Of a DNA stretch of 64,000 bases, positions 2,432 through 27,268 are shown piece after piece. Made by a program: the position numbers and the translations under genes. The stretch's first letter is position 1. Each line of letters begins with the position of its first letter. Below the pieces are notes generated by a model that was given only the letters and a program-made list of their open reading frames with translations, made no database searches and was not told the DNA's origin. Source of the stretch: Chryseobacterium lactis (GTDB taxonomy: Bacteria > Bacteroidota > Bacteroidia > Flavobacteriales > Weeksellaceae); contig NZ_CP033924.1 of assembly GCF_003815875.1 (NCBI RefSeq), positions 5,332,001-5,396,000 on the forward strand, written 5' to 3'.

Positions 2432-2644
2432 TCAAAAAACACCCGTTTTTACAGGTGTTTTCTTTATTTTTTCTACTTGATCATATGAGATCATTTCTTT
2501 CAAAATTCTTCTGGATGGACACTTGCATGGACATTTGCATGGATAGAAAAAGAATCCTTCACCCTTTTTATCACAAGCATAAGTCCAAATTTTAGATTTA
2601 AATGAAGTTGTTTTGATTATTAAGATATATATAGGGACATTCAT
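2432..2644 (-). CDS. Small cysteine-rich ORF after the repressor gene
   Basis: A 70-codon frame starts 24 bp beyond the repressor stop on the same strand. It encodes a CKCPCKCP motif near residue 36-43, reminiscent of small metal-binding peptides. The last codons are made of the terminator hairpin itself, which is unusual for a real gene. I do not recognise it. It could be a small accessory protein of the element or chance reading of non-coding DNA. Confidence 0.25.
   Translation of the reverse strand: MNVPIYILIIKTTSFKSKIWTYACDKKGEGFFFYPCKCPCKCPSRRILKEMISYDQVEKIKKTPVKTGVF
2436..2461 (-). terminator. Hairpin terminator at left edge of the phage element
   Basis: AAAACACC (2436-2443) pairs with GGTGTTTT (2454-2461), with A/T tracts on both sides, so it may work in both directions. 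It would end the leftward repressor transcript and is the leftmost sequence I assign to the element. Confidence 0.65.
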
Positions 2645-2667
2645 TCATCAATAAAAACGAATGATTA

Positions 2668-3462
2668 TCAATCAGTTATATTCTTTTTCAGTTTCAACAT
2701 CTGCATTTCTGCTTCAAGATCATTCAATCGGTCGTAAAACTCTGCCGGATCCGGTAAATTAAAGTTTAAATGCAGCTTCACCTCCCACACCTCTTTTATA
2801 GTGCTTGGATGAATATTTTGTGTCGGATAATTTCTTCGGTTATCAGATTTACAGATCAGGTTATCATATTTCTTAATTCTGTTCAGACATCTTTTAATTA
2901 AGCCATCTTCAACTTCATTAGAAATAATCGCATAGAGTTTATTATCTTTTATTCCATGGATCCAGTCATCCACAAACTGAGCAATCACATGCGTTCTGTC
3001 CGGCAACGTTGGAAACATAGAATTTCCTTCTATCTCAAACATCCTGAAGACCCCGTTATTAAGGTTCGGAAGCCTGAAGGTAGGAAGGGTTTTAATAAAG
3101 TTAGGATCATTATATCCCTGCAGGTACCCTGCTCTTAATTTATTAGCAACAAGAGCGATATTATCACGGTTGTGCGCATCCACAGTAATTACTTGTGGAA
3201 CCTGTTGTGTAAAATCTGATGGCAAACCTATTGATTCTTTTTTATCGCCGGCGAGCATTTCCCCAACTCCAAGAACCAGCCATTCGGAATTTATTGCGAG
3301 TGCGGAGCAAATTTTTTCGATTACATTAAATTTAGGCTCCGTCCCATTGATATAGCTTCTTATATTGGATTCATTTACTCCTATCATATTGCCAAACACG
3401 GAGTTATTTCCATTCGCAAAATAATCAACAAGTTGTTTTATACGAAAATTTATTCCATTCAT
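2668..3462 (-). CDS. S24/LexA-type phage repressor
   Basis: Numbered from an in-frame TTG at 3468, the N-terminal ~70 residues form a helix-turn-helix of the Cro/CI type and residues about 130-235 an S24 autoprotease fold. Ser150 in EGNSM and Lys192 in GLIKR fit the catalytic Ser/Lys dyad; a RecA-stimulated self-cleavage that induces the element is expected from the family. I chose ATG 3462 (264 aa) over TTG 3468. A short coiled-coil-like tail follows residue 240. It is divergent from the early operon and shares a control region with inverted repeats at 3483-3531. This argues that particle production is SOS-inducible, although cleavage itself is inferred. Confidence 0.88.
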   Translation of the reverse strand: MNGINFRIKQLVDYFANGNNSVFGNMIGVNESNIRSYINGTEPKFNVIEKICSALAINSEWLVLGVGEMLAGDKKESIGLPSDFTQQVPQVITVDAHNRDNIALVANKLRAGYLQGYNDPNFIKTLPTFRLPNLNNGVFRMFEIEGNSMFPTLPDRTHVIAQFVDDWIHGIKDNKLYAIISNEVEDGLIKRCLNRIKKYDNLICKSDNRRNYPTQNIHPSTIKEVWEVKLHLNFNLPDPAEFYDRLNDLEAEMQMLKLKKNITD

Positions 3463-3482
3463 AATCAAATATTTAAATCTTG

Positions 3483-3538
3483 ATTCGAGAATTTTTTCGA
3501 ATTTTCATTTGGTTATTCGTAAAACTTTACGATATTTG
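3483..3538. promoter_or_regulatory. Divergent early control region with operator-like inverted repeats
   Basis: Two inverted repeats lie between repressor and early operon: ATTCGA/TCGAAT (3483-3502) and CGTAAA-AC-TTTACG (3518-3531). The second lies between a TTTG (3508-3511) and GATATTTG (3531-3538, one mismatch from TANNTTTG) spaced 19 bp, so a protein bound there would block rightward transcription. This is the expected layout of a lysogeny switch. Confidence 0.55.
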
Positions 3539-3563
3539 TCTCGTACAAAAGACAAACACGATA

Positions 3564-3785
3564 ATGGACAAAACTACTAAAAAAAGAACATATTACAATA
3601 CAGACATTCTGAATATTCTAAAGGAACGTCACGGTTGTTCACTCGACTTCATTCGTAAATCTTTACGTGGAGACCGAGTTGGTGAAAAACCTGATATGCT
3701 TAGAAAAGAATATAGAATTTTTTTAAGCAAAACCGAACAAGCAATTTATAACGAAGCAGAATCACTTAATAGCAAATTCCCATGA
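3564..3785 (+). CDS. Small early DNA-binding-like protein
   Basis: The 73-aa product starts at ATG 3564; reading further upstream would run into the promoter. It is basic and helical, with a NILKERHGCSLDFIRKSLRGDR stretch that could be a helix-turn-helix (second helix around SLDFIRKSLRG). Position as the first rightward early gene opposite the repressor is where Mu has ner and lambda has cro. Its stop overlaps the next start in an ATGA. Function is inferred from position and weak motif only. Confidence 0.6.
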   Translation: MDKTTKKRTYYNTDILNILKERHGCSLDFIRKSLRGDRVGEKPDMLRKEYRIFLSKTEQAIYNEAESLNSKFP

Positions 3786-3916
3786 AAAAATTATTACAAA
3801 CCTTATTCTGTCACAAAGAGATCGATGTGATAGATGCCAAAACAGGAAGAAAAGAAATTGCCACTTACCAGATCATTCTGGGTATATTTTTTAAAATCAG
3901 ATACAAACCCGGATAA
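3782..3916 (+). CDS. Small ORF coupled to the early regulator
   Basis: This 44-codon frame starts at an ATG that overlaps the previous stop (ATGA at 3782-3785), a typical sign of translational coupling. The product starts MKKLLQTLFCHKEID and ends with a basic FFKIRYKPG. I do not recognise it. It overlaps, in another frame, the first 83 bp of a longer reading of the transposase gene, which supports a later transposase start at 3954. Confidence 0.45.
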   Translation: MKKLLQTLFCHKEIDVIDAKTGRKEIATYQIILGIFFKIRYKPG

Positions 3917-3953
3917 TTATCCGACACCAAACAACAAAATAGCGAAAAAAATT

Positions 3954-6008
3954 ATGCCATTTCAATGGGGCAATATATTAACAGTAACAAAAGATGAGCT
4001 TGTTCCGATGTACTTTAACACGCTTGATTCTTTACAAAAAAAAATCCAGCGATACAGAGATTTGCCATTTGGAATAAAGCAGGTACGAAAAGGGGGAAAT
4101 GGCCGACAGATGCTTATTGATTTTGATTCATTGCCCAAAGAAATTCAGGACAGCATAGGAGATCCACGAAAAATGCAGCATCCCATGATTCCTTTCTTCC
4201 AGTTTGACCCTTCAGCAGTACGATATTTTACGGATTTCAGATTTGAAGACGGAAGCCCGTTAAAAGAAAATTTTAAACAAGAATATATAACCAACGCCAG
4301 TGTTCTTTTAGCGGCAGAAAGATTAAAAACAGCCCGCCTGGAAGAATGGAAAAAATTGAAAAAAAATTCAGGCCGGGGGCTTCTTCCTTCACTCTGTACT
4401 GACCTTATAACATTCAATGAATATTTACCCAAGCTTTTTGGAGTACAGCATACGATACCATCTTCCTACAGAGCTTTTGACAGAATATGGAAACCATTTT
4501 TTAACACATTTGAAGAAGGATATCACTACGGAAGTCTCATATCAGGAAAGCTTAAAAATCAGAACAGAAAACTGATGACAGATGAAATGATCGCATTATT
4601 AAATGACATGTTCGCAGGTCAGGAATATAAGCCATCGAGAACACAGGTAGCCAATCAGTACAAGGCTTTTTTAAGCGGAGATCTTGAAATTATCTCCAAC
4701 GAAACCGGAGAAGTCTACGACCATAGCAACAACGCAAAGTTCAAAGAAATTTCAGACAGTTCCATCATCGCCTGGTTAGGTAAATGGGAATTTAAAATAG
4801 GAACTTTTGCAAAACGCTCCGGAGATCGCCAAAAGCTGATGCAGTCATTTATTCCCTGGCACAAGCTTACTAAAATTAAAGAAGCTGGAACTCTTATCTC
4901 AATCGATGACAGACAGCCTCCTTTTATGTATGATAAAAACAGGAACCGGGTTTGGTTTTATATGGGAATCGACTTGGGATCTGAAACATGGACCTGCTGG
5001 GTTCACGGAAAGACCAAGGAAGGAATTATCATCGAGTTTTATCGTCAAATGATTAGGAATTATATAGAATGGGGATTTAATCTTCCTCTTGGATTAGAAT
5101 GTGAAAGTTCTTTAAACAGCAGTTTTAAAGACACTTTTTTAAGGAATGGAGCGATGTTCGACAATGTTAATATTTATGCAAACCGAGCAAGATCCAAAGC
5201 CATAGAAAGAAAATTTGAAGAACTCAGGTACAGACATGAAAAAAGCAGATTGGGTTGGATGGCCAGACCACACGCCAGGAAAGAAGAAAACCAAAAAAGC
5301 GGCGATGAAGAGGTTTTTATTCCTTACGAGGATATTATAGATCATTCTTTACATGACATTGAAATATGGAATAATGCTCCTCACTCTGTTCATACAGAAA
5401 AAACACGATGGGAAGTATTTTGCGAGATGCAAAACAAAAACACCCAGCCAACGAACTGGAGGGCACTACTCCCCTATCTCGGCAAGGAAACTATTTCAAG
5501 TTGTAATGCAGGAATTATCAATTTCAGAAATACCACTTATGTGTTGGGAATGGATGGGGAAATAACCCTGGGCGAAGATTTAATAAGGCTTATGAAGTAT
5601 GTGGAAGGAAAAGAGTTCAGCATTTTCTGGCTTGACGGAAATGACGGCAGCACTCTGAAGGCGATGATTTATTATGATGATATGATGCTTTGCGAAGTTG
5701 TACCTCATCCGGAATATTCAAAATCAAAACATGAAAGAACTGAGCAGGGAGACCTCAACAGAAAGCTGATGTCAGCCTATGAAAATACAGTCAATTCCTT
5801 TATGGCTCAGCAAAAAAGAGAAATAGAGCAAATCACGATCATCGATCATCGGAGCAAAACTTTGAACAATAAATTTCAGATTCCGGGCAGAAAAAAATAT
5901 ACGCAAACAGAATCTATTCCTCAGGAACTTCTTTTAGAAGAAAACACTGGATATCACTATGAAAAAACAGAAGGAACCGCAAGAAGCTGGAAATCAAATT
6001 TCAGATAA
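3954..6008 (+). CDS. MuA-like DDE transposase
   Basis: The protein is 684 aa from ATG 3954; an in-frame ATG at 3834 would add 40 residues of low-complexity sequence that overlaps a coupled small ORF, so I prefer the later start. The N-terminal ~250 residues are DNA-binding modules. The rve/RNase H-like core follows with SIDDRQ (Asp318/319), WFYMGIDLGS, LECESSLNSSF (Glu382/384) and AIERKFEEL (Glu418). These are the expected places of the DDE triad, but the second position appears to be Glu rather than Asp. A Mu-type C-terminal beta-barrel follows. It would join element ends to target DNA together with the next gene product. Confidence 0.88.
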   Translation: MPFQWGNILTVTKDELVPMYFNTLDSLQKKIQRYRDLPFGIKQVRKGGNGRQMLIDFDSLPKEIQDSIGDPRKMQHPMIPFFQFDPSAVRYFTDFRFEDGSPLKENFKQEYITNASVLLAAERLKTARLEEWKKLKKNSGRGLLPSLCTDLITFNEYLPKLFGVQHTIPSSYRAFDRIWKPFFNTFEEGYHYGSLISGKLKNQNRKLMTDEMIALLNDMFAGQEYKPSRTQVANQYKAFLSGDLEIISNETGEVYDHSNNAKFKEISDSSIIAWLGKWEFKIGTFAKRSGDRQKLMQSFIPWHKLTKIKEAGTLISIDDRQPPFMYDKNRNRVWFYMGIDLGSETWTCWVHGKTKEGIIIEFYRQMIRNYIEWGFNLPLGLECESSLNSSFKDTFLRNGAMFDNVNIYANRARSKAIERKFEELRYRHEKSRLGWMARPHARKEENQKSGDEEVFIPYEDIIDHSLHDIEIWNNAPHSVHTEKTRWEVFCEMQNKNTQPTNWRALLPYLGKETISSCNAGIINFRNTTYVLGMDGEITLGEDLIRLMKYVEGKEFSIFWLDGNDGSTLKAMIYYDDMMLCEVVPHPEYSKSKHERTEQGDLNRKLMSAYENTVNSFMAQQKREIEQITIIDHRSKTLNNKFQIPGRKKYTQTESIPQELLLEENTGYHYEKTEGTARSWKSNFR

Positions 6009-6022
6009 CACAAAATAAAAAT

Positions 6023-6949
6023 ATGGAGATCAATAAAGAATTAAGACAACAAATCCGCAATACCATGCTGCAAAACCGAAAAAACTTCGGGGGTACAGAT
6101 GCAGCATTTGCAAAATCTTTAAGTATAAGCAGCTCAATTTATAGCCGCATAAAAAAAGGAGAAACAGAGAAAGTTTTATCAACCGGCGAATGGTTGAATA
6201 TAGGACGAAAATTTCAGGTCAATATCAACAAAAACGACTGGAAATTCGCAAAAACCGAAGTATACGAACAAATGCATGAGAGCTTTCTGTTCTGCCAAAA
6301 GACAAAAAGCTCAATGATCCTTGTCGATGACTGTGGAATAGGAAAAACAGAATGCGCCAAGGCGATTATTTCTCAGATGAAAAATGCCTTCTACGTCGAT
6401 GCTTCGCAAACTCATACGAAAGTAAGATTCATCAAGCAGATAGCTCTGGTATTGGGATGTGAGACCAAAGGAAAATACCATGAAGTGCTTGAAAATGTAA
6501 AATACGCTTTAAACATTCTTGAAAACCCTTTCATCTGCATTGATGAAGCTGGAGATCTGGAATACAGCGCATACCTGGAATTGAAAGGAATTATGAACGA
6601 TACCGTCGACAATTGCGCCTGGTTTATGATTGGAGCCGATGGCTTAAGAGCAAAAATTACCAAGGGAATTAATAATCACAAAGTAGGATTTGCAGAAATC
6701 TTCAGCCGTTTTTCAGATGACTTTGTCACCCTTGTACCAAGAGGTCCGGAAGATCGCAAGAAATTTTACACAAAACTGATCGGAGATGTCGCTTATGTAA
6801 ATCTTGATGACAAATCTTCCATCAATGAGGTCATCAGAAGCTGTATGGTAAAAATAGATTCTCCATATAAGACCAGAAAAGGCCAGGAAGATGGAAAAAT
6901 CAAATCATTAAGATATTTAAAAACTCTAGTAAGCATCAATAAATCATGA
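6023..6949 (+). CDS. MuB-like AAA ATPase (transposition target selection)
   Basis: The 308-aa protein has an N-terminal helix-turn-helix (about residues 25-65, LSISSSIYSRIKKGE) and an AAA core with Walker A DDCGIGKTE (102-110) and Walker B FICIDEAGD (170-178). In Mu, MuB binds target DNA in an ATP-dependent manner, delivers it to MuA and gives target immunity. It starts 14 bp after the transposase stop and overlaps the next gene by 4 bp, so the three genes are one transcriptional unit. Confidence 0.85.
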   Translation: MEINKELRQQIRNTMLQNRKNFGGTDAAFAKSLSISSSIYSRIKKGETEKVLSTGEWLNIGRKFQVNINKNDWKFAKTEVYEQMHESFLFCQKTKSSMILVDDCGIGKTECAKAIISQMKNAFYVDASQTHTKVRFIKQIALVLGCETKGKYHEVLENVKYALNILENPFICIDEAGDLEYSAYLELKGIMNDTVDNCAWFMIGADGLRAKITKGINNHKVGFAEIFSRFSDDFVTLVPRGPEDRKKFYTKLIGDVAYVNLDDKSSINEVIRSCMVKIDSPYKTRKGQEDGKIKSLRYLKTLVSINKS

Positions 6950-7575
6950 AATCAATATCAGTAAAGCAGGCATTATCTATTGTTTTTAAGCAGTTTGAAT
7001 TCAGTGATCTCTGGTTAAAAACCTTCGGAAAACCGGAAACAACAGGATTTTGGTATCTGGGAGGTGCCGAAAAACATGGGAAAACCACTTTCGCCATGAT
7101 GCTGGCAAAATACCTTGCCGGCTTTGGAAAAGTTCTATATATCTCTGCAGAAGAAGGATTTTCGAAAGATATTATTTCAGCAATGGTCTTTGCAGGACTT
7201 TCAGATACGGATAAGAATTTCAAGCTGCTGGATTATATGCCCTGGGAAGAGCTGCTTCAAAAATTTGAATCCAGAAAATGTCCTAAAATTATATTTATCG
7301 ACAACACGACCGTTTACCGTGATGAAATCACCCGAAAAATGGTATTGGAACTTAAAGAAAAGCACAAAAACAAACTGATCATTTTCGTAAGCCATGAAGA
7401 AAAAAGTCTTCCGGATAGTGCCCTGGGAACAGTGTGGAGAAAATTATCAAAAATCATCATCCAGGCGGAAGGCCTGAGAGCAATCATCTCGGGAAGATGT
7501 CCCGGCGGAACATTAAATATTAACGAAGAAAAAGCAAACCTCTATTGGGGAACAACAACAGAAAATCAACAATAA
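6946..7575 (+). CDS. RecA/RadA-like P-loop ATPase of the transposition operon
   Basis: This 209-aa protein has Walker A GGAEKHGKTT (39-48), a conserved YISAEEG segment (65-71), and a Walker B strand KIIFIDN (114-120) followed by a possible sensor SHEE. The layout is of a short RecA/DnaB-like core, not AAA. Its start overlaps the MuB-like stop (ATGA). Mu itself has no such gene; what it does here is unknown, perhaps DNA handling or recombination after transposition. Confidence 0.65.
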   Translation: MKSISVKQALSIVFKQFEFSDLWLKTFGKPETTGFWYLGGAEKHGKTTFAMMLAKYLAGFGKVLYISAEEGFSKDIISAMVFAGLSDTDKNFKLLDYMPWEELLQKFESRKCPKIIFIDNTTVYRDEITRKMVLELKEKHKNKLIIFVSHEEKSLPDSALGTVWRKLSKIIIQAEGLRAIISGRCPGGTLNINEEKANLYWGTTTENQQ

Positions 7576-7849: not shown

Positions 7850-8479
7850 ATGATTACAGAAACATTAAAAATTATATCGCTTGAAGAACTTGAAGCAGAA
7901 TTAAACAACAGAAAACAACAGGAAGCTCAGAAACGTGAGGAAAAACGCAACCAATATGAAAGTTTAAAGAAGTCAGTGATCAACGATCTGGCACCTGTTG
8001 CCGATAAACTATCATCGGATATTCAAACTTTTAAGACAAAAGCTTTTTCAGAAATCGGTTCCCTGTTCGACCTTTTAAAAGATTACAGCAAAAGGCATCA
8101 GGATGGAAAAGGAAATTTTAAGGTAGAAGATGAGAATTTTAAAATTCAATTTAAAAGACAGGGAAAAGGCACTTTCGACGAACGTTCTCATCAGGCAGAA
8201 AGGCATATCATCGACTTTTTAACTTCAAAATACGAAGGTGATCTTGATACCAAAGATTTAATCATGTCTCTTCTGGAGCGTAAAAACGGAGCACTTGACA
8301 TTCTGCTGGTTCAAAAGTTATACAGCATGGAAGATCGCTTTGACGACGAGAACTGGAAAGACGGAATCCGTTTATTAAAGGAAAGCTACAAATTTTCCTT
8401 GAGCAAAGATTATATCTCCTTTTTCAAAAAAGATGAAAATAATGAATGGATCGGAATCAACTTAAATTTCTCCTATTAG
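7850..8479 (+). CDS. DUF3164-family Mu-like phage protein
   Basis: The 209-aa protein has a charged coiled-coil N-terminus (residues ~10-65) and a core with DGKGNFKVED, IQFKRQGKGTFDERSH and LLERKNGALDILLV, which matches the DUF3164 family I know from early regions of Mu-like phages. Its biochemical role is not established. It lies between transposition genes and the terminator of the early block. Confidence 0.7.
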   Translation: MITETLKIISLEELEAELNNRKQQEAQKREEKRNQYESLKKSVINDLAPVADKLSSDIQTFKTKAFSEIGSLFDLLKDYSKRHQDGKGNFKVEDENFKIQFKRQGKGTFDERSHQAERHIIDFLTSKYEGDLDTKDLIMSLLERKNGALDILLVQKLYSMEDRFDDENWKDGIRLLKESYKFSLSKDYISFFKKDENNEWIGINLNFSY

Positions 8480-8855: not shown

Positions 8856-9074
8856 ATGATTAAAATAAATTGTCATTGGTACAGCAATGAAGAAATAAAA
8901 GAAGCTTTGGAGAAAAAGGGATACACGATTGTCACTCTTGAAGTAAGCACAGATCCCAGAGATTATCCACTATATGAAACCTATGCACTTAAAACCGAAG
9001 AAGAGCCCGGCACTCTGAATCTTCTAAAAAGTGTAGCCCTAAGAGAGTTTCAAAAGAAACCACTTCTCATATGA
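8856..9074 (+). CDS. Hypothetical early protein (72 aa)
   Basis: The last gene before the early terminator, 22 bp after its neighbour. The product opens with WYSNEEIKEALEKKGYTIV, a helix and strand that could be a small alpha/beta domain. I do not recognise it. Confidence 0.5.
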   Translation: MIKINCHWYSNEEIKEALEKKGYTIVTLEVSTDPRDYPLYETYALKTEEEPGTLNLLKSVALREFQKKPLLI

Positions 9075-9076: not shown

Positions 9077-9108
9077 AAAACGACTGTCGTAAAGGCAGTC
9101 GTTTTTTT
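9077..9108 (+). terminator. Early-operon terminator
   Basis: AAAACGACTG (9077-9086) pairs with CAGTCGTTTT (9096-9105), followed by T-rich sequence. It directly follows the last early gene. Confidence 0.85.
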
Positions 9109-9153
9109 GTTATGATATATAAGTTTCGGCTAAAGCCAAAAGGCATGTTTCAT

Positions 9154-9436
9154 ATTGATTAAATGGGCTAAAGCCCATTTCTATTGATACAAAAATCATT
9201 ATTTCCAATAACGTATTTTTCAACATCTCTAAAATCTCAACTTTTAAATGTGTTTTATTCAATTGATTAAATGGGCTAAAGCCTATTTCTATTGATACAA
9301 AAATCATTATTTCCAATAACGTATTTTTTTTATATCTCTAAAATCTCAACTTTTAGATGCGCTTTATTCAATTGATTAAATGAGCTAAAGCCCATTTCTA
9401 TTGATATAAAAATCATCACCCCCAACAACGCATTTT
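9154..9436. repeat. Tandem ~108-bp repeat with GGGCTAAAGCCC palindromes
   Basis: Two and a half copies start at 9154, 9262 and 9371. Each begins ATTGATT and carries the palindrome AAATGGGCTaaAGCCCATTT (9161-9180; variants at 9269-9288 and 9378-9397), then CTATTGATA. The palindromic part resembles REP-like dispersed repeats of Chryseobacterium. It fills the gap between early and late genes and holds no gene. Confidence 0.8.
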
Positions 9437-9491: not shown

Positions 9492-9695
9492 ATGTCTTAC
9501 AACAATAAAAATTACATCAAGCGTGCCCGGTACATTATAAGTATTTATAATGCACACAAGCATGCTGATGTTCCTGATACAAAAATAGTAAGACATACTT
9601 TCCCCAAATACAATATTCATCTTTCGTACAGACAATGGATGAACATCAAAGGAATGGTAATTCCCAAGGAAGAAACCCAGCTTACTTTATTCTAA
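9492..9695 (+). CDS. Small basic hypothetical protein
   Basis: A 67-aa product (MSYNNKNYIKRARYIIS...) rich in Lys, Arg, His and Tyr, ending in TQLTLF. Earlier starts overlap the -33 and -7 promoter elements, so ATG 9492 is chosen. It overlaps the convergent tail gene by four bases. Basic character and position between the early and late blocks would suit a late-gene regulator, but no motif proves it. Confidence 0.5.
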   Translation: MSYNNKNYIKRARYIISIYNAHKHADVPDTKIVRHTFPKYNIHLSYRQWMNIKGMVIPKEETQLTLF

Positions 9696-10237
9696 TCCTG
9701 ACCTATTGAATTAAAACTATAGCGAAAAATCTGAGCTCGGTTTTCTTCAGGGCTCGCAGACAAATCTTCATATTGAGTCGTAAAAACAACCTCTCTTACC
9801 TTAAATCCTTTATGATTTTTACTCGTACTTTTTGTCAAGGTTCTTGAGAAAGGTGAGAAATAATCTTTATTCCAGCCCTGAAGTGCTTTATATAACTTCT
9901 GCTCGATTCTTAAAAAATCCAGTCCCTGTTTTCTTTCTTCAATGGGAGCCTGATGCCATGTCTGATGCGTATCGTTAGCCACTAGCTGAAATGATACCGG
10001 CACATTGGCCAGTTGTCCGTTTGCTGACATTTCAGAATAAGAAGCTTCCGGGAAATCGACATCATATACCGCCTCCGGAAAGTCGATAAATAATGCCGGA
10101 TAAATTACCGGAGTCTGATTTCCGGAAACTCCTTCCAATTGTCCCAACTGCTGATCGATGTATTGTATTTCAGGAACCTCCTGTGCAATTCTTTCCTGAA
10201 GGTCTAATAATAGTTGTACATAAAAATATTCTTCCAT
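9692..10237 (-). CDS. Putative tail terminator/completion protein
   Basis: This 181-aa protein is on the opposite strand from all other tail genes. It opens with a helix (EEYFYVQLLLDLQERIAQEVP) and has YPALFIDFPE and VPVSFQLVAND strands, like small tail-completion proteins of contractile-tailed phages; I know similar unannotated proteins beside Bacteroidota tail modules. It is transcribed divergently from the late operon, with 221 bp between their starts. The function is inferred from context and fold impression. Confidence 0.45.
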   Translation of the reverse strand: MEEYFYVQLLLDLQERIAQEVPEIQYIDQQLGQLEGVSGNQTPVIYPALFIDFPEAVYDVDFPEASYSEMSANGQLANVPVSFQLVANDTHQTWHQAPIEERKQGLDFLRIEQKLYKALQGWNKDYFSPFSRTLTKSTSKNHKGFKVREVVFTTQYEDLSASPEENRAQIFRYSFNSIGQD

Positions 10238-10380
10238 AAGTATTAAATATAGTTTCTCAAATTACTTTCTGTTTTTTAATAGCTTAATGCAACAGGGACT
10301 TCATTTTATTCCCCGCCTACACTATTTCACATTACAAAATTGAGCTTTAAACAGGTCATTTTAAAAAAGGTGTGCAATCC

Positions 10381-10409
10381 TTGCGCTCTTATTTTCAAAA
10401 CGTTGCGCT
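10381..10409 (+). promoter_or_regulatory. Paired TTGCGCT sites before the late operon
   Basis: TTGCGCT occurs at 10,381-10,387 and again at 10,403-10,409, exactly 22 bp apart (two helical turns), about 50-75 bp before the first late gene and inside the divergent region with the reverse-strand tail gene. No good TANNTTTG follows at the right distance, which would suit an activator-dependent late promoter. Function is inferred. Confidence 0.4.
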
Positions 10410-10458: not shown

Positions 10459-10917
10459 ATGGATTCATTATCTGCAACCGCATTAAAAGTCGCAATTACT
10501 CAAATAGGACAAGAGGAAAAACCTCAGGGTTCAAATTGGGGAATCCCGGTTAAAAACTACCTGGCATCAGTAGGAATCAATTTCCCTGCAAGCTGGTGTA
10601 TGGCTTTTGTGTACTGGTGTTTTAATGAAGCTTCAAAGCAGAATAAAACAACCAACACAGCGATCAAAACGGGTGGAGTTTTATATGCATGGAATAATGC
10701 TCCGAAAGAAAAAAAATCTTTAAAACCCTCTGTTGGTTCCGTATTCATTATGGATTTCGGAAAGGGTCTCGGCCACACAGGCTTTGTTGAAAAATTTGAC
10801 AGCCAATATATCTACACTGTAGAAGGAAACACCAATGACAACGGAAGCCGTGAGGGAATAAAGGTATGCAGGAGGAAAAGAGCTTTATCATCAATTAAGG
10901 GTTATATACAATATTAA
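10459..10917 (+). CDS. CHAP-like peptidoglycan hydrolase (endolysin)
   Basis: The 152-aa protein has the NlpC/P60-CHAP arrangement: PASWCMAF with Cys47, GLGHTGFVE with His106, and VEGNTN (121-126) with the third polar residue. It lacks a signal peptide, so it would need a holin or the neighbouring membrane proteins to reach the wall. Enzymes of this family cleave peptide bonds in peptidoglycan. It is the first gene of the late operon; lysis is needed for particle release. Confidence 0.8.
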   Translation: MDSLSATALKVAITQIGQEEKPQGSNWGIPVKNYLASVGINFPASWCMAFVYWCFNEASKQNKTTNTAIKTGGVLYAWNNAPKEKKSLKPSVGSVFIMDFGKGLGHTGFVEKFDSQYIYTVEGNTNDNGSREGIKVCRRKRALSSIKGYIQY

Positions 10918-10918
10918 A

Positions 10919-11440: not shown

Positions 11441-11524
11441 ATCCTATTAAACTATAAAACAGAACAGAAAAAAGATTTCTGATTCAAAAATATGTACAAC
11501 AACTTTTTAAAAAATAATTAAAAA

Positions 11525-17728: not shown

Positions 17729-17729
17729 T

Positions 17730-18312: not shown

Positions 18313-18313
18313 C

Positions 18314-19231: not shown

Positions 19232-19233
19232 TC

Positions 19234-19782
19234 ATGAATGATAAATTATTTACCATCAATTTTAAAAGACTGGCAAGCTGGTGGCTGTTTACGTTCTGGC
19301 GAACAAAATCAGTATTAAACCTGGTGTCTGTTCTTATTTTCTGCATTGAGGACCTTTATAAAAGTGTCATGGAAGAAAGAAAAGGAAATCTGGAAAAGAT
19401 GAATTACAACTACCAGAAGTTTTCACTTGAAAAAGTCCTCAATCGTAAGCATGATCGGGTTGCCAAGAGAATTAAAATTATTAAAGCCGTCCAGTATGAA
19501 GGTGTTTACATATACACTGAAGCCGAGGACAATCAGGGCAGCACGCCTACTCCGGGAGGAGGAATTTATAATCCGAAAACCAAATGGCTCTACGGAGATA
19601 CCAATCCTCTTTATCTGAGAATGGAAGCAGAACTCTACAGCGAATACGACTTTATTGTACAGATACCTGTGAATAGTGATAATCCTGATGAACCATTATT
19701 GAACATAGACCAGCTGAAAGCTGATATAGATTTTTACAAATTACCTTCCAAAAGGTACCAAATACAAACAAAAGCATATTAA
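19234..19782 (+). CDS. Baseplate/tail protein (gpI-like position)
   Basis: The 182-aa product starts two bases after baseplate J. Its N-terminus is hydrophobic and aromatic (LASWWLFTFWRTKS), and a Gly/Pro-rich loop lies around residues 95-105. In P2 and Mu the gene after J encodes the protein that joins fibres to the baseplate, so this may be a fibre-attachment factor. No family is recognised. Confidence 0.5.
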   Translation: MNDKLFTINFKRLASWWLFTFWRTKSVLNLVSVLIFCIEDLYKSVMEERKGNLEKMNYNYQKFSLEKVLNRKHDRVAKRIKIIKAVQYEGVYIYTEAEDNQGSTPTPGGGIYNPKTKWLYGDTNPLYLRMEAELYSEYDFIVQIPVNSDNPDEPLLNIDQLKADIDFYKLPSKRYQIQTKAY

Positions 19783-19783: not shown

Positions 19784-20620
19784 ATGAAATATAATTTCAA
19801 ATTTTTACAAACAGGCGGTGTTCCTCTAACGAATGACCTCATGGCACTTATTGAAGAAGCTTATGAAATTTTTGAGGTTCTTGGAGATCTGGCAGGAAAT
19901 AAAACCATTTTATCAGGAGGTGAAGTTGTAGGATCCTTTGTGAATCCGGGAATTGTAGCCATTGATGGAAAGCTTTATTACTTCGAAGGAGGAAGTGTAA
20001 GCTCCAACCTATACATCCACACTGAACCCATTGAAAAAGTATTTGAAAGCCAGGAATCAAAGGTTTTAATTGAAAAAAGAACCGTTAAATTCGGTACAGG
20101 TACCGGCTCCAATAACTATCTATGGTCGGAATTCGTTAAGCTGTCTACTTTAAAAGAAATCCAGGTAAAATTAAATAATATGGCGTCGCAACCTGATGTT
20201 AACGCTTTAGCACAAAGAGTTGCTGCGCTTGAGCTTAAAACGTCACCTATTGTCAACGGAGGAGTGGTCTTTGTCTGGAAAAAACCGGTATCAGAAATTC
20301 CTGCAGGCTGGAAAGAATGCCAGGACTTTAGAGGAAAAACGGTAATGGGATGGAATCCTAATGATAATTCTTTTTCAACACTTGGAGCTGAAAGCGGTTC
20401 TAAAACCAAAATAATTACCAAGCAGAATTTACCTGATTTAACGACTTCGCTTTCATTACTTAATCCATATGAAGGAAACATCGGTGGAGGTGGATTTGAT
20501 GGGGGTAATAACAGATGGCATTACAGTACAGGAACCTTCAATCCGGGGGGAACTTCTCAGCCTTTCGATGTTCTTAACCCTTATAGAATAGTCAACTTTA
20601 TTGAACCTAATTTCCAATAA
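19784..20620 (+). CDS. Tail fibre with phage collar domain
   Basis: The 278-aa protein ends in a phage tail-collar-like domain: GWKECQDFRGKTVMGW, LGAESGSKTKIITKQNLP and NPYRIVNFIE (residues ~170-278). The N-terminal half has strands and a coiled coil at 130-150. It could be a short fibre, or the adaptor that carries the three long fibres encoded downstream. It is in the same tight operon. Confidence 0.65.
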   Translation: MKYNFKFLQTGGVPLTNDLMALIEEAYEIFEVLGDLAGNKTILSGGEVVGSFVNPGIVAIDGKLYYFEGGSVSSNLYIHTEPIEKVFESQESKVLIEKRTVKFGTGTGSNNYLWSEFVKLSTLKEIQVKLNNMASQPDVNALAQRVAALELKTSPIVNGGVVFVWKKPVSEIPAGWKECQDFRGKTVMGWNPNDNSFSTLGAESGSKTKIITKQNLPDLTTSLSLLNPYEGNIGGGGFDGGNNRWHYSTGTFNPGGTSQPFDVLNPYRIVNFIEPNFQ

Positions 20621-20629: not shown

Positions 20630-22612
20630 ATGTCAACACCATTAAATACCATACTCAGCTATTTTGAGACCGGAGACTTTCCTACTCAGGAGCAGTTTCA
20701 GGCTTCATGGGAATCTTTCTGGCACAAGGATGAAACAATTCCTACCAATAAGGTTGCAGGATTAGACAGCCAGCTGCAGAATAAAGCTGATAAAAATATA
20801 TTTGAAGCACACACTTCAAACCCGGATTCCCATACAGCTTATTTAGCCAAAAAAGATGCGTCTAACTTAGATAATACGAATGTTCAGGCCTGGAAAAATG
20901 CTCTAGGTGTAGGTGAACTGCCGGAAAATATCGCCACGGTTGACAATGAAAATAAGTTTGGAAATGTCTATTCAAAAGACCAAAGCAATGAAAGGTTTTT
21001 AACATTCAATGACTACGTTAATGACGATAGAAAAATCCGGGCTGATAAAATTGAAGCTTTAGGCTTAACAACCCTTATTGAAGCTACGGAAACATCTATT
21101 TCAGAATTTGCGGCACATTCAGGTTCATATACATTTGAAGATAATGACTTTATAGCCATTCCTGACAACAATGGAAATTTTGGCCTGCATATGTTTAAAG
21201 GAGGCAATAAAACAGAGGTTAAAAACTATCTGGCAACAGGACTTTCCAATATCACCATGGCAATGGTAGAGGGGCTACAAGACGCTTTGAATGAAAAAAT
21301 GCGTAAACCTTCTTATAATGGTAATTTCTTTATCAGAGGACTTGGCCCGGGACCAATTTACGCTCCCATATCACCCGCTTCCAATTATTTGCTGTCGTGG
21401 GATGGAAGTGATTTCAAAGAGTCTACCATGTATTATAAAGACGGAAGATTTGGTATCGGAACCAAAACTCCGGAAGCGCAGCTTCACTTATTAGGAAATG
21501 TAAGATCTTCCGCATATGCTTTTGATACCAATAATGAAGCAAAAAGAGATCAGATTACCTATGATGGGTCGAAATTCTGGGGAGCAAATAATGCTTCTGT
21601 AAGACGACCTTTTATGTTTGCTGATTACGCCGCAGAAGTAGAATTGTGGAGCAGCCTGACAGATGCACAGAAAACTGATCTTAAAACAATTATGAATGGT
21701 GGCTGGAGTACAGGAACCATGAGTGTTGCACTCATCACACCGCCTGTAGTAGATATTTCGGACAAAAACTATTGGATCAGCTTAAAAGGAGCTAATTTAA
21801 ATCTTAACCCTACCAGCTACAGTCTGGAAATTATGGCAAATGATGGAGTGACTCCTATAGCGATTATCCCAAATTCTCAGGTTCAGCTCTATACCAATGG
21901 TTTGGATTTATCTTTCTATTTCAACTTTAAGAATATTCCCAGGGGAAGTTATAAATTAAGATTATGGAATGGCGTTGCCAATTATCTAACATCAATGACT
22001 GTAAATGTTGTTGACAAACTTCAGCTTATCAACCTGAATAATCTTATATGGGAGACCAAACTATATACACCAGGCACTCCCGGAGTTGTGAATATCGCCG
22101 GAGGTGCAATGAGCTATGTGGCTTCTTACCAAAATAAACCTTTTGCCCGGGAGGCTGTTATTGTAGCAGCAATGAAAAGCAGTGAACTTATTCCTGCCGG
22201 ACAAAATTTCAGTATTTCAGGAACTTTCAGGTTAAGGGATGCATCCAATTCAGCAATGAATATTGTATTAGGTTTAATAAGTAAAGACAACAACCTCAGC
22301 TTAAACAATAATGCCAATTTTCAGACAAGTATTAATAATAACAACCTTGCCAATTACTCAAAAACTGTCAAGGGAGATAATTTAACGGCAATCGTTACCG
22401 GAAATGAAACCGAAGTAATCGCAGGATTTACCATGGCCAGGAACGGAAATTTATTCACTGTTATCATTGAACAGGGAGGAAAGATTGCTGTAGGAACTAA
22501 AGTAGGAATTGAAGATGCGTTATGTTTGGTTTCCTATATCAACAACACTCTGAATAACGACGGAATAGGTGCCGACGCGGGCTTTAATATACAATCTTGC
22601 TATATATTTTAA
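20630..22612 (+). CDS. Long tail fibre 1 (receptor binding)
   Basis: The 660-aa protein shares its first ~230 residues with the next two genes (LNTI-SYFETGDFPTQEQF, SNPDSHTAYLAKKDASNLDNT, IEALGLTTLIEA). The first ~75 residues should bind the baseplate. Residues ~280-460 are also shared with fibre 2 (PEAQLHLLG, MNGGWSTGTMS, SLKGANLNLNPT), then the last ~190 residues diverge into a beta-sandwich-like tip. Shared base and variable tip are the pattern of receptor-binding proteins. Confidence 0.78.
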   Translation: MSTPLNTILSYFETGDFPTQEQFQASWESFWHKDETIPTNKVAGLDSQLQNKADKNIFEAHTSNPDSHTAYLAKKDASNLDNTNVQAWKNALGVGELPENIATVDNENKFGNVYSKDQSNERFLTFNDYVNDDRKIRADKIEALGLTTLIEATETSISEFAAHSGSYTFEDNDFIAIPDNNGNFGLHMFKGGNKTEVKNYLATGLSNITMAMVEGLQDALNEKMRKPSYNGNFFIRGLGPGPIYAPISPASNYLLSWDGSDFKESTMYYKDGRFGIGTKTPEAQLHLLGNVRSSAYAFDTNNEAKRDQITYDGSKFWGANNASVRRPFMFADYAAEVELWSSLTDAQKTDLKTIMNGGWSTGTMSVALITPPVVDISDKNYWISLKGANLNLNPTSYSLEIMANDGVTPIAIIPNSQVQLYTNGLDLSFYFNFKNIPRGSYKLRLWNGVANYLTSMTVNVVDKLQLINLNNLIWETKLYTPGTPGVVNIAGGAMSYVASYQNKPFAREAVIVAAMKSSELIPAGQNFSISGTFRLRDASNSAMNIVLGLISKDNNLSLNNNANFQTSINNNNLANYSKTVKGDNLTAIVTGNETEVIAGFTMARNGNLFTVIIEQGGKIAVGTKVGIEDALCLVSYINNTLNNDGIGADAGFNIQSCYIF

Positions 22613-22639
22613 ACATCCTTTTATTTTAATTTAAAAATC

Positions 22640-24574
22640 ATGTCAATCCCATTAAATACCATATACAGCTACTTTGAAACAGGAGACTTTCCTACCCAGG
22701 AACAGTTTCAGGCTTCATGGGCGTCATTCTGGCACAAAGATGAATCTATCCCTACCAACAAAGTTGCAGGATTAGACAGCCAGCTGCAAAATAAAGCGGA
22801 TAAAAATATACTTGAAACCCATATTTCAAACCCCGACTCTCATACCGGTTATTTAGCCAAAAAAGATGCTTCCAACTTAGATAACACAAATGTCCAGGCC
22901 TGGAAAACAGCTTTAGGAGTTGGTGAGCTTCCGGAAAACCTTGCTACAGTTGATAATGGAGGTCAATTTGGAAATGTCTATTCGAAAGACCAGAGCAACG
23001 AAAGGTTTCTGACATTCAACGACTACGTCAATGATGACCGAAAGATCCGTGCCGATAAAATAGAAGCTTTAGGCTTAACAACGCTTATCGAAGCTAAGGA
23101 AACTACCATTTCTGGATTCGCTGCCAATGCAGGTTCATATCAATTTGAGGACAACGACTTTATTGCCATTCCTGATAGTTCCGGAAACTTTAGCCTGTAT
23201 ATGTTTAAAGGTAATGAGAAAACAGAGGTTAAAAATTATCTGGCAACAGGACTGTCCAATGTAACCATAGGAATGGTAGAAGGCTTACAGACCGCTTTGA
23301 ATTCAAAAATGGATAAACCTTCTGCCACCGGCAATTTCAGCTATGTTGCTTCTGTAAAAAATGGCGTGGTGACCTGGAGTCCTATATTGATGTCTCCCAA
23401 TTACATGGTGTATTGGAACGGTATTGAATTTATGGCAGCTAATGTTGCCTATCAGCAAGGAAAAGTTGGTATTGGTATAGGCAGTCCCAGTGAGCAACTG
23501 CACGTCATAGGAAGAGTACAGACAGACGCTGTTGTTCTCAGCATGAATACAGAAACCAGAAATAATCAGTTAACCTATGATGGAACAAAATTCTACGGGA
23601 CAAACGTATCAAATATCAAACGTCCTTTCATGTTCTCCGATTATGAAGGCGAAGTTGAATTATGGAGCAATCTTACCGATACACAAAAGACCAATTTAAA
23701 GACCATTATGAACGGGGGCTGGAGTACCGGTACGATGAGTGCTGCATTGATTAGTCCTCCAATTGTTGATCAAACAAAAAATCAACCTTCCTGGATAACA
23801 TTGAAAGGTGCTAATTTAAATTTAAATCCAACTACTTTTTCTGTTGAATTACTCAATATTGACACCAATATTTATACAACTATTCCTGGCAGCCAGATCC
23901 AGTTATTTACGACAGGATTAGACCTTGTTTTTTGGTTTAACTTCAATACAATTCCGGAAGGAAATTATAAAATCAGATTATGGAATGGAGTAGCCTACTA
24001 TACAACACCAATGACTTTAAAATCGTTATCAAAATTAGTTGAATTTGATATGACAAGTATTGTATGGACTCCTTTAAAAGCTGATGGTAGCACAACATCA
24101 GGAAGCTATGGCAATAACGGATATGGCACGATTACTCCCGGAGGAGTCTGGACAGCCTTAAGGTCATCAGTCTTATTTAAAGAAAATGAAGATTTCAGTT
24201 TGTCTTTTAAAATTAACTCACAATTACCGATCTCCAATCAGGTTAATTATGTCGGAATTGTAAGTGGTTTAATTCCGCTTTCAACAGTTAATAATTTCAG
24301 CATTGAATGGAAATACCAGGATTATGCTTCATGGGGAGGTTCCGGAAATGTGCTACTCAATGGAAACCTGGCAGGAACCGGAAGTACAAACTTTACAGAT
24401 ACAATATATATAACAAGGCAAGGAACACTTTATAGTGTCATGGTGGTAAAAGGAGATGGAAAGGTTCATTATTTTAATATTACCACTCCGGCAGTTCCCG
24501 TTACATTAGGATTACTTGGTATTGTAGGAACAGAAACTTTAACCATCCAACAAATTTACTCTTTAAATCAATAG
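22640..24574 (+). CDS. Long tail fibre 2 (receptor binding)
   Basis: The 644-aa paralogue begins 28 bp after fibre 1. It shares the attachment and shaft sequence with fibre 1 to about residue 455, including RPFMF-DYEGEVELWS and IMNGGWSTGTM. Its C-terminal ~185 residues differ: a Gly/Ser/Thr-rich beta domain (TTSGSYGNNGYGTI, SLSFKINSQLP) that could be a lectin-like tip. This suggests duplication followed by tip replacement. Confidence 0.78.
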   Translation: MSIPLNTIYSYFETGDFPTQEQFQASWASFWHKDESIPTNKVAGLDSQLQNKADKNILETHISNPDSHTGYLAKKDASNLDNTNVQAWKTALGVGELPENLATVDNGGQFGNVYSKDQSNERFLTFNDYVNDDRKIRADKIEALGLTTLIEAKETTISGFAANAGSYQFEDNDFIAIPDSSGNFSLYMFKGNEKTEVKNYLATGLSNVTIGMVEGLQTALNSKMDKPSATGNFSYVASVKNGVVTWSPILMSPNYMVYWNGIEFMAANVAYQQGKVGIGIGSPSEQLHVIGRVQTDAVVLSMNTETRNNQLTYDGTKFYGTNVSNIKRPFMFSDYEGEVELWSNLTDTQKTNLKTIMNGGWSTGTMSAALISPPIVDQTKNQPSWITLKGANLNLNPTTFSVELLNIDTNIYTTIPGSQIQLFTTGLDLVFWFNFNTIPEGNYKIRLWNGVAYYTTPMTLKSLSKLVEFDMTSIVWTPLKADGSTTSGSYGNNGYGTITPGGVWTALRSSVLFKENEDFSLSFKINSQLPISNQVNYVGIVSGLIPLSTVNNFSIEWKYQDYASWGGSGNVLLNGNLAGTGSTNFTDTIYITRQGTLYSVMVVKGDGKVHYFNITTPAVPVTLGLLGIVGTETLTIQQIYSLNQ

Positions 24575-24596
24575 TTCACCCTTATAAACAGAAAAT

Positions 24597-26855
24597 ATGT
24601 CAATACCATTAAACACCATATACAGCTATTTTGAAACCGGAGACTTCCCTACTCAGGAACAATTCCAGGCTTCATGGTCATCATTCTGGCACAAAGATGA
24701 ATCTATCCCAACCAGTAAGGTTACAGGCTTAGAGAGCCAGTTACAGAACAAAGCCGATAAAAGCATCTTCGAAAGCCATATTTCAAACCCGGATTCTCAT
24801 GCCAGCTATTTAGCAAAAAAAGATGCTTCAAATCTTGACAACACTAATATCCAAGCCTGGAAAACAGCCTTAGGTGTTGGCAACCTTCCCACAAATATAG
24901 CTACCGTGGATGATGGCAATACATATGGGAACGTGTATTCAAAAGATCAAAGCAATGACAGATTTTTAACATTCAATGACTATGTGAATGATGACAGAAA
25001 AATTCTTGCTGAAAAAATAGAAGCTTTAGGTTTAACAACCCTTATCGAAGCCAAAGAAACTAATCTTCCAGCTTTTGCAGGAAACTCAGCTTCTTATCAG
25101 TTTGAGGATAATGATTTCATTGCCATCCCTGATAGTGCCGGAAACTTTAGCCTGTATATGTTTAAAGGAGGTGAAAAAACAGAGGTGAAAAATTATCTAC
25201 CGACAGGAATATCCAATGTAACTATAGGAATGGTAGAAGGTCTTCAAGCCGCTTTAAATGAGAAAGTAAATAAACCCGCTACAGACGGTAAGTTTTATAT
25301 CAAAAGAGATGCTGGTGTTACTACAACCGAAGTCTTACCGGATGAAACACTTGCTACCGTTGTCAACAGAAACAACTATTGTCCTAAAGGCATCGCTTTT
25401 ACTGAAGACAAAACAGGAAGCGGTAATCCGGGAACAGTGGCTGTTTTGGGAATCAACAGGTCTACGTATTCTTTCTCTTTTGGTAATATTAATGCTAATC
25501 ATACAGGAACTTACAATATCGCCTGGGGATACAATACATTACCAGCAGTAACTTCCGGGCAATCCAATACGGTAGTCGGACATTTTGCAGGTAAGGATGT
25601 AACTACCGGCACAGCCAATGTTATCATGGGAGTAGAGGCTGGAACAGGACTTGTAACAGGTACAGACAATACACTGATAGGAACATCGTCCGGATATGGA
25701 TTGAAAGAAGGTACCGGAAATACCATGCTTGGAAAGTGGACAGGCTGCTTTATTGCCGGCGCCAACAATACCTTTTTGGGTTATCAGGCAGGACAATACT
25801 GGGGTAAGGGAGGTACCGGTTTATGGTCATCCAATGTCGTCATCGGAGGAGGAACTTCGGGCCATGGTAATGGAATCTGGGGCGAAAACAACCTTATTCT
25901 CGGGTCTAATATTGAACTGATCGGGGCACAAAATAATAAATTCATTATCAACAACTTCCTCAGAAAGGATAATAATTATTACAAAACCCATTTCATCGAA
26001 GGAAATTTTGCTGATCGTTGGTTAAGATTTGACACCAGCTTACAGGTGTTAAGGCTACCCGTCGCAGATGCCACATTTACTAAAAATGTTGTAGCAAAAC
26101 CCGACGGAACTTTTGGAGTGGAAGAAAAACAAACGATCTCCCAGGATTATATTCCATTAGCAGGAACATCTGCCGGTAAACCTGTAAAGGGTACCATAGA
26201 ATTTGCAAAAGAAGGAGGCGGAGAAATGAAAAGTGGCGTAGCATCAATTGCTATGGAAGACGGGTTTACATTTATTACTTCAACAGACATAGCTACCGGT
26301 CAGGTTTCTCGATTAAGCGTAAGCCCAACACAGGTCTTTTTATCTCAAAACGGAGGTGAAAACAGAAAATATATCAACCTGTCTAAAGATATGGATAGAA
26401 TTGATATAGGTTCACCAGCACTGGGTCCGGGTATTGTAGGGTCAAATTATTACGGAGCAAATTATACAGACAACTCTTTCGTTCAAAAGAAATGGGTAGA
26501 TGAAAAATTAAAAACAATTAGACCGGGCTTTAAAATTTATAAAGCTTTGATGTATGTAGACCGTTACCTGGAGCCTAAATTCACAGTTCTGGAAAATACA
26601 TTGGGAGACATTGTATGGAAACGTGAAGATACAGGAAGATATATGGCAACATTACAAGGGGCATTCCCTACTGACAGAACATGGATCAATAGTAAGGTAA
26701 ATGCCCGGTCAGGAAAGAAATATGCGTACGACTGTCTTACAGATATCATATCGGATGATGCATTATACCTTCATCTTCTTAACTGTGACGATGTCAGCAG
26801 CCCCACCGATATTGTAGGCCAATTTGGAGTGATTGAAATCTACGTATACGATTAA
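24597..26855 (+). CDS. Long tail fibre 3 with YadA-like repeats (receptor binding)
   Basis: The 752-aa protein shares only the first ~235 residues with fibres 1 and 2. The middle (about 300-450) has a repeated pattern, as in GTGNTMLG, GANNTFLG and SNVVIGGG, typical of left-handed beta-roll heads of trimeric adhesins (YadA, Hia). The C-terminus (~610-752) is another unshared domain with cysteines. This is the longest and most different of the three tips and could target a different receptor. Confidence 0.78.
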   Translation: MSIPLNTIYSYFETGDFPTQEQFQASWSSFWHKDESIPTSKVTGLESQLQNKADKSIFESHISNPDSHASYLAKKDASNLDNTNIQAWKTALGVGNLPTNIATVDDGNTYGNVYSKDQSNDRFLTFNDYVNDDRKILAEKIEALGLTTLIEAKETNLPAFAGNSASYQFEDNDFIAIPDSAGNFSLYMFKGGEKTEVKNYLPTGISNVTIGMVEGLQAALNEKVNKPATDGKFYIKRDAGVTTTEVLPDETLATVVNRNNYCPKGIAFTEDKTGSGNPGTVAVLGINRSTYSFSFGNINANHTGTYNIAWGYNTLPAVTSGQSNTVVGHFAGKDVTTGTANVIMGVEAGTGLVTGTDNTLIGTSSGYGLKEGTGNTMLGKWTGCFIAGANNTFLGYQAGQYWGKGGTGLWSSNVVIGGGTSGHGNGIWGENNLILGSNIELIGAQNNKFIINNFLRKDNNYYKTHFIEGNFADRWLRFDTSLQVLRLPVADATFTKNVVAKPDGTFGVEEKQTISQDYIPLAGTSAGKPVKGTIEFAKEGGGEMKSGVASIAMEDGFTFITSTDIATGQVSRLSVSPTQVFLSQNGGENRKYINLSKDMDRIDIGSPALGPGIVGSNYYGANYTDNSFVQKKWVDEKLKTIRPGFKIYKALMYVDRYLEPKFTVLENTLGDIVWKREDTGRYMATLQGAFPTDRTWINSKVNARSGKKYAYDCLTDIISDDALYLHLLNCDDVSSPTDIVGQFGVIEIYVYD

Positions 26856-26885
26856 ATTTTCAGAGATGAATTAAATATAAAAAAC

Positions 26886-27227
26886 ATGATTGAGTTATTC
26901 AAAGAACATATAGGTACTTTTCTCAGCTTAGTAGTTTCGGGCTCTGCAGGATGGTTTTTCGGAAGAAGAAAGCTGAATGCAGAGGTAGAAGGAATGGATG
27001 CGGATAATGAAGGTAAAAAGCTGGAGAACGACGAGAAACTCGTTAATCTTTATAAAGAAGCTTTGGATGACCTTGGAAATCGTTATGAATCAAAGTTCAA
27101 AGAATTTTCAGAAATTTCAGAGCGAAAGATTAAATTGCTGGAAGAAGAAATCAATATTCAGAAACGCATCAATGAGCAACTGAGAGCAGAAAATGCTGTT
27201 CTTAAAGCAAAATTAAAAGAGAATTAA
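26886..27227 (+). CDS. Small membrane protein with coiled coil (holin candidate)
   Basis: The 113-aa product has one hydrophobic segment at residues ~10-27 (GTFLSLVVSGSAGWFFG) and a long charged coiled coil from ~40 to 113. It is the last gene before the late terminator. A single-span small protein at an operon end could be a holin or a membrane anchor for assembly, but no family is recognised. Confidence 0.55.
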   Translation: MIELFKEHIGTFLSLVVSGSAGWFFGRRKLNAEVEGMDADNEGKKLENDEKLVNLYKEALDDLGNRYESKFKEFSEISERKIKLLEEEINIQKRINEQLRAENAVLKAKLKEN

Positions 27228-27240
27228 ACTTATAATTTAC

Positions 27241-27268
27241 AAAAGCATCTACAACAGATGCTTTTTTT
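27241..27268 (+). terminator. Late-operon terminator
   Basis: AAAAGCATCT (27,241-27,250), loop ACAAC, AGATGCTTTT (27,256-27,265), then T-run. A perfect 10-bp stem ends the tail operon. Confidence 0.9.

Follow-up and report, generated by a model that had tools for sequence, protein, structure and literature searches.

Can a contractile tail that serves as a bacterial weapon still be a mobile element? This question is raised by a 64,000-nucleotide stretch of the 5.62-Mb, one-contig genome of Chryseobacterium lactis (NZ_CP033924.1, positions 5,332,001 to 5,396,000; hereafter the window), in which a 25-kb element (window 2275-27342, termini TAC...GTA) joins Mu-type transposition genes to a contractile tail operon without head genes. 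This combination, which a sequence-only reading of the window had noticed, was confirmed by PHROG and Pfam profile scans of the open reading frames (ORFs), by tblastn and by iterated profiles. We consider it rather probable that the element is a transposable tailocin, that is, a Mu-type element whose product would be a headless contractile tail. The headless design, which recurs across species and lineages, points to a bacterial weapon still carrying the machinery to move and perhaps to copy itself.

The element begins with a repressor on the minus strand and continues with MuA, MuB, an ATPase, a DUF3164 gene and a 67-aa gene, followed by a minus-strand gene at 9692-10237 and then by CHAP endolysin, membrane protein, sheath, tube, chaperone, tape measure, hubs, baseplate and three fibres (Table 1). 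The contractile tail set (sheath, tube, tape measure, baseplate and fibres) is present, with spike, gp25, LysM and J genes placed by position. As the sequence-only reading had claimed, no portal, terminase, protease or capsid gene was found in the element, nor did a head gene emerge from among its small hypothetical genes. In fact, of nine head-module proteins of a relative compared with the window by tblastn, only the tail terminator matched; searches of window 1-28000 with iterated profiles gave no match for TerL, portal, protease, capsid or MuF; and neither Portal_Mu (PF06074) nor PF05136 was found in the whole genome. No ORF longer than 250 aa is left without either a match to early or tail proteins or a paralogue that has one; for a 305-aa ORF, a family whose function is unknown scores best, and a tail family matches weakly. 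Two observations speak, at face value, against the absence of a head. The best match of the tube, phrog_9206 (E 2e-15, 139 of 501 profile positions), is labelled "major head protein", yet the tube also matches a tail protein and directly follows the sheath, as in relatives. The third fibre matches, over about 100 residues, two families labelled "virion structural" in the head and packaging category, as well as the tail spike family phrog_4636, and the first two fibres have no family match.

The minus-strand gene at 9692-10237, left unnamed in the sequence-only reading, has a predicted fold resembling the Mu terminator, the R2 pyocin collar, the diffocin collar and the monocin cap. It is thus predicted to encode a Mu/pyocin-type tail terminator that closes the tail, a likeness to R-pyocin, diffocin and monocin, in which this fold caps the tail.

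The genes that are missing can be read from head-bearing Mu-type prophages of Chryseobacterium and its kin (L033, L037, L082, L083, L104 and L110), whose sheath is 60-67% identical to that of the element and which share its late motif and terminator. In these six, a minus-strand operon runs terS-terL-gp36-portal-F-G-terminator, with the terminator last; the plus-strand operon across the divergent promoter opens with protease and capsid. The motif TGTGCAATCCTTGCGC lies between terS and the protease in all six with 0-2 mismatches, it lies between terminator and CHAP in the window, and it could be aligned in the six headless elements compared (that of G296 is outside the alignment); at up to 3 mismatches it was not found in G190-type phages. 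Head genes are absent to the left and to the right of the motif, but the motif itself is kept in the window, so the promoter region stayed. The comparison with these close relatives thus shows the loss, on either flank of the divergent late promoter, of eight head genes (capsid and protease; terS, terL, gp36-like, portal, MuF and MuG); what is left is the promoter motif, the terminator, the lysis genes and the tail. The endolysin differs in type, being an amidase in L037 and a CHAP protein in the window element. A 9-residue insert found in the terminators of six aligned headless elements, and in none of five head-bearing ones, is consistent with one origin of the Chryseobacterium headless clade.

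The early genes have other affinities. MuA of the element shares 73-75% identity with that of phages (in G190, G179, G234 and others) whose sheaths either reach 25-26% identity or fall under the search threshold. In the head-bearing prophages with the similar tail, by contrast, MuA aligns over only part of its length, at about 28% identity, in the genomes where it was seen (G179, G242, G171). Because MuA is nearest to one phage type and the tail is nearest to phages with a distant MuA, the element is probably a recombinant of two phage types. The related Mu-type prophage in G190 is present in two copies, one of 41.6 kb (G190:C1:1,647,497-1,689,133) and a second near 3.31-3.36 Mb, with two ends of about 7 kb that are 97.7% identical. 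Its ends read TACTCCCC...GATTGTA, and the 4-bp target-site duplications (TSDs) are CATC and TATG; two copies with such duplications suggest a recently active head-bearing relative.

To learn how widely the headless element occurs, 173 genomes of the genus were searched with the sheath, and the surroundings of all 24 matches were compared. Seven of the 24 hold the headless element with its whole early module and the same gene order, in seven species: the window genome (G000), C. angstadtii (G149), C. arachidis (G152), C. indologenes (G193), C. vrystaatense (G299), G296 and a metagenome-assembled genome (G281). Twelve others have head genes, and five have a headless tail for which no MuA was found within about 15 kb upstream (G202, G238, G253, G289) or about 3 kb (G269). 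Headlessness is therefore no peculiarity of one strain. Moreover, Portal_Mu occurs in none of the seven genomes with the headless element vs 8/8 head-bearing genomes. Both ends are conserved across the seven elements, in contrast with the flanks, which differ: mean pairwise identity in the terminal 24 nt is 0.72 inside vs 0.26 just outside on the left, and 0.70 vs 0.29 on the right, although the boundaries were set by eye to begin with TAC and finish with GTA, which favours the inside value. MuA, MuB and conserved ends are what the element shares with Mu-type transposable phages, from which it differs in that head, portal and terminase were not found. Short direct repeats resembling ATGGACAYTTG (window 2512-2547, near the left end) are present in the seven elements and are putative transposase or repressor binding sites.

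The element was also found at different chromosomal places, as the sequence-only reading had proposed to look for. Flanking genes define site A (G193, G296 and G281, with the msrA/alaS side in common), B (the window), C (G149), D (G152) and E (G299). On the window's chromosome these correspond to msrA at 2,998,721 (A), the element itself at 5,334-5,359 kb (B), a LytTR gene at window 34,867-35,625 (C), dnaK at 5,518,028 (D) and cobT at 2,932,732 (E). As B and C lie 7.5 kb apart in opposite orientation, four to five sites are counted. Site B is empty in G103 (acyltransferase, tRNA-Phe, DUF3472, tRNA-Phe), and site E is without the element in G218, G000, G179 and G149, with gaps of 0.05-3.4 kb. 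The flanks at site A are unequal in length and G193 is without three left-side genes, so that "same site" rests there on shared neighbours. A tRNA-Phe duplication was considered as an attachment site and rejected, two tandem tRNA-Phe genes being present in 7/8 related loci without the element. The suggestion of a mobile tailocin thus stands in so far as a headless element keeps open MuA and MuB genes and has changed place; spread through packaging by another phage or conjugation, which had been part of it, is conjectural, with no Portal_Mu in the seven genomes and a sole plasmid sheath match of 27.7% over 56% of the query. Phage and plasmid collections held no close relatives (best full-length sheath 28%; best MuA 26% at full length, 30% partial).

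Selection was measured as pairwise Nei-Gojobori ratios of non-synonymous to synonymous substitution rates (dN/dS) within the site-A trio. Values were 0.04-0.06 for MuA, 0.02 for MuB, 0.01-0.03 for the repressor, 0.11-0.19 for the terminator and 0.05-0.16 for the sheath; a 74-aa tail gene, together with one fibre pair of low reliability, gave the highest values (0.28-0.44). Such low values show strong purifying selection on MuA and MuB, which were therefore needed throughout and were not relaxed by long vertical residence. Concatenated early genes gave 0.028-0.039 at dS 0.38, 0.74 and 0.69, and three host genes 0.020-0.026 at dS 0.35, 0.69 and 0.65; the similar dS suggests that the element was inherited vertically within the trio. 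At the right end 20-22 of 24 nt are conserved within the trio and the flanks are not. The trio is recovered by element and host trees alike, but the two disagree about G152, and the host pair G149 and G299 is kept by the tail tree, not by the early-gene tree. MuA is open over 684-685 codons in 7/7 elements, counted from residue 41 of the listed ORF, and its D318/D319, E382 and E418, invariant in a 15-row alignment, are presumably catalytic.

R-pyocin, diffocin and monocin are not known to carry a transposase. That R-type pyocins are P2-derived and without transposase had been stated in the sequence-only reading; a P2 origin is not general, since the R-type tailocin of P. syringae derives from Mu according to a 2024 review (PMC12090994). 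This tailocin is likewise a headless contractile tail from a Mu-type phage. The same review describes tailocins as lacking nucleic acid replication genes; the present element departs from this description, and presumably from the P. syringae tailocin, in keeping its ends and constrained MuA and MuB, and in changing site. Nor is a tailocin that keeps mobility genes wholly unprecedented, given BceTMilo of Burkholderia cenocepacia, for which a tyrosine integrase and a putative Xis are described (PMC5411513). That tailocin locus likewise still carries DNA mobility genes, yet it is P2-like (KL3-like) with a site-specific integrase, and the string "transpos" is absent from the main text of the paper. 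Among the papers listed in searches of the open-licence literature, with subscription papers and preprints outside the scope, none deals with a tailocin that has MuA and MuB, in line with the sequence-only reading, which knew of no description of the combination. The order of the early module recurs in hankyphage p00 (OY725603) and other Bacteroidota Mu-type phages, where it is followed by a head operon on the minus strand and, on the plus strand, by an operon for protease, amidase and tail; hankyphage differs in carrying the head module, and its MuA is 30% identical to that of the window over only 29% of the query. Extracellular contractile injection systems of the PVC/Afp type have an AAA+ ATPase in the tail operon. 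Such an ATPase had no match among the tail-operon ORFs in the Pfam and PHROG scans.

How might a transposable tailocin work? The head would have been lost once, in the ancestor of the Chryseobacterium headless clade. The early operon would be silenced by a CI-like repressor, whose S24 match is weak, and induction would act through this repressor; MuA and MuB may then replicate the element by transposition and so multiply the tail genes. For hankyphage, a CI-like master repressor and replicative transposition upon its silencing are reported (PMC12135933), and the element may be amplified in like manner. A late activator, perhaps the 67-aa gene, would turn on the terminator and the lysis/tail operons at the conserved motif, the endolysin would lyse the cell, and the headless tails set free would kill relatives. 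Rare transposition in a surviving lineage would relocate the element. With this locus at hand, the way in which tailocins pass between sites and genomes becomes directly testable, and an amplification of weapon genes by transposition is suggested.

Several points weigh against such a transposable tailocin. At the seven elements, whose ends resemble those of the G190 prophage, no TSD was recognisable, the best being a 3/4 match in G299, and MuA and sheath searches gave one copy per genome; thus there is no sign of recent activity. Each species is represented by a single genome, in several cases a draft, and the site differences could come partly from chromosomal rearrangement. Comparison of the MuA profile with solved structures matched no transposase and gave nothing useful. 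In L035, the seventh of the head-bearing relatives, whose sheath is 59% identical, the motif was not found at up to 3 mismatches. The role of the 67-aa gene as late activator is a guess: the protein is 59-99% identical across headless and head-bearing relatives, with three helices predicted at low confidence, and family searches gave no meaningful family.

Headless elements recur beyond this clade, in four other lineages. Four more, with MuA, MuB, ATPase and terminator, were found, two in the family (G127, locus L044; G090, L045) and two in IMG/VR (G302, 23.9 kb, L279; G301, 21.8 kb, L231). On a sheath tree of 28 sequences, 11 of them headless, the headless label needs five changes, and a single clade of the 11 is rejected by the approximately unbiased test (p-AU 4.4e-8), a p value weakened by the naming of the test group while looking at the data and by the long branch of G301; head regain by recombination may be an alternative to repeated loss. 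Comparison of 63 sheath loci, which come from the sheath and MuA searches with headless cases included and are not a random sample, with five head families gave 37 that match all five, 6 that match four (five without MuF, and L035 without TerL), none that match one to three, and 20 that match none. Among these 20, 11 have MuA (in L300 in the adjoining piece), six are without MuA found (L311, L330-L334) and three are not judgeable (L031, L320, L322); family matches outside the 63 are G073, G099 and a third G065 match. A MuA scan of IMG/VR kept 80 of 162 confirmed places. Seven of the 80 are headless, namely L231, L279 and five of the Chryseobacterium clade (some being genomes already counted), and the rest have heads or are unclassifiable in 10 kb; hub matches L240 and L298 were not counted as headless. 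Portal_Mu was found in 0/4 headless IMG/VR records, 0/2 short fragments and 4/4 records of 33-45 kb. Tentatively, transposable tailocins may form a recurrent mobile-element class in Bacteroidota, in which heads are repeatedly shed, terminator, lysis genes and tail are kept, and replicative transposition would not yield virions but would, on induction, multiply the weapon operon, and would also carry it to new sites. Comparison with relatives shows in any case which genes are shed and which are kept when a phage becomes a weapon.

Other explanations have to be weighed. The element could be a domesticated tailocin whose MuA and MuB no longer move or copy DNA and are kept for a role in place, such as regulation, the site differences being due to rearrangement or homologous transfer. 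The presence of the element in one neighbourhood in three species, the core-like constraint on its early genes, the single copy per genome and the lack of TSDs would fit; conserved ends beside unconserved flanks in the trio, the invariant acidic residues of MuA and at least four neighbourhoods across seven genomes would not, and we regard this explanation as unlikely. Less likely still is a tail-carrying satellite, a transposable element joining its own tails to the heads of a helper phage for packaging. In a phage tail, the terminator also forms the end to which the head attaches, and its retention, together with that of ends and transposase in many species, could be so understood, yet Portal_Mu occurs in none of the seven host genomes, the head operon has lost its gp36-like and MuG-like genes as well, and the partial agreement of element and host trees does not call for frequent transfer. 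An ordinary defective prophage, in which the head was deleted and the remainder survived by chance, is very improbable even if deletion derivatives of Mu-like phages are expected and L035 (no TerL match, protease in two pieces) looks like a decaying prophage, for MuA/MuB, lysis and tail genes are open in seven species with trio dN/dS of at most 0.44, no sheath locus of the 63 matches only one to three head families, and a repeated origin is indicated by the rejected single clade.

Table 1. Features of the element, with positions in the window
Feature	Position	Strand	Basis
Left end	2275-2298	+	TACACTCACTC...; common to 7 elements
CI-like repressor	2668-3468	-	phrog_4 E 2e-15; Pfam HTH below cut-off; S24 E 0.03, below cut-off
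First gene of early operon, 73 aa from conserved ATG, function unknown	3564-3785	+	conserved in sisters
MuA-type transposase, 684 aa	3954-6008	+	phrog_310 E 5e-34; listed ORF 3834-6008
MuB-type transposition ATPase	6023-6949	+	phrog_296 E 2e-35; AAA_22
Phage ATPase	6946-7575	+	phrog_6891 E 4e-54
DUF3164 protein	7850-8479	+	PF11363 E 2e-16
72-aa early gene	8856-9074	+	67% identical in headless G127
67-aa protein, candidate late activator	9492-9695	+	position and conservation
Predicted tail terminator, sole kept gene of divergent head operon	9692-10237	-	predicted fold
Motif TGTGCAATCCTTGCGC, divergent intergenic region	10371-10386	+	between terminator and CHAP
CHAP endolysin	10459-10917	+	PF05257 E 8e-14; phrog_9589
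Membrane/lipoprotein-like protein, putative lysis role	10919-11440	+	position, sequence, conserved in relatives; no informative family
Tail sheath	11525-12685	+	DUF2586 E 2e-24; phrog_907
Tail tube	12694-13131	+	phrog_4579 (tail protein) E 1e-8; position
Tail assembly chaperone-like	13162-13569	+	position; phrog_19076 of unknown function
Tape measure protein	13751-15394	+	TMP_3; phrog_1686
Baseplate hub proteins, two ORFs	15396-17016	+	DUF6046; phrog_5233; phrog_4930 E 5e-50
Spike-like, gp25-like, LysM-like and baseplate J-like genes	17016-19782	+	names of the sequence-only reading, position, weak matches; phrog_38413 E 2e-61 of unknown function
Baseplate/fibre protein with Gp10_C	19784-20620	+	PF21939; phrog_5795
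Three tandem fibre genes, common N-terminus, divergent C-termini	20630-26855	+	repeats D1-D3
113-aa coiled-coil protein, last gene	26886-27227	+	conserved in 7/7
Right end	27319-27342	+	CGGCATTTG...GTCTGTA

The start of MuA is probably 3954 rather than 3834, and the first 40 residues of the listed ORF were rejected as coding, stops being present there in sisters G193 and G296. Two small ORFs appear truncated in sisters, the first early gene in G152, where a stop falls in its longer ORF (from 3480), and an 80-aa ORF in G193 and G296; the stops in the first early gene of G152 and in the 80-aa ORF of G193 precede a conserved internal ATG. ORF 2432-2644 is probably spurious. Between two early genes, window 9108-9433 holds three tandem copies of a 109-nt repeat, where five sister elements have only 54-100 bp. 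The tandem fibre genes number three in G149 and two in the remaining sisters. An NCBIfam scan of 10 proteins gave nothing useful.

Loci L330, L331, L333, L334 and the short L332, also from Chryseobacterium, code for headless tails and have terminator and sheath genes, but neither MuA nor MuB was found in them; they are apparently a second, transposase-free kind of tailocin and offer a natural comparison. Near L330 and L334 lies a patatin-like gene, recognised by motif. L311 (G092, 10720-14833), with a repressor-like gene, a small HTH-like gene, terminator and sheath beside nuo-like genes and no MuA found, is a further transposase-free headless tail locus. Finally, window 27735-32262, adjoining the element, carries genes for an ABC transporter and for radical SAM proteins, reminiscent of a cluster for the export of a peptide (RiPP).

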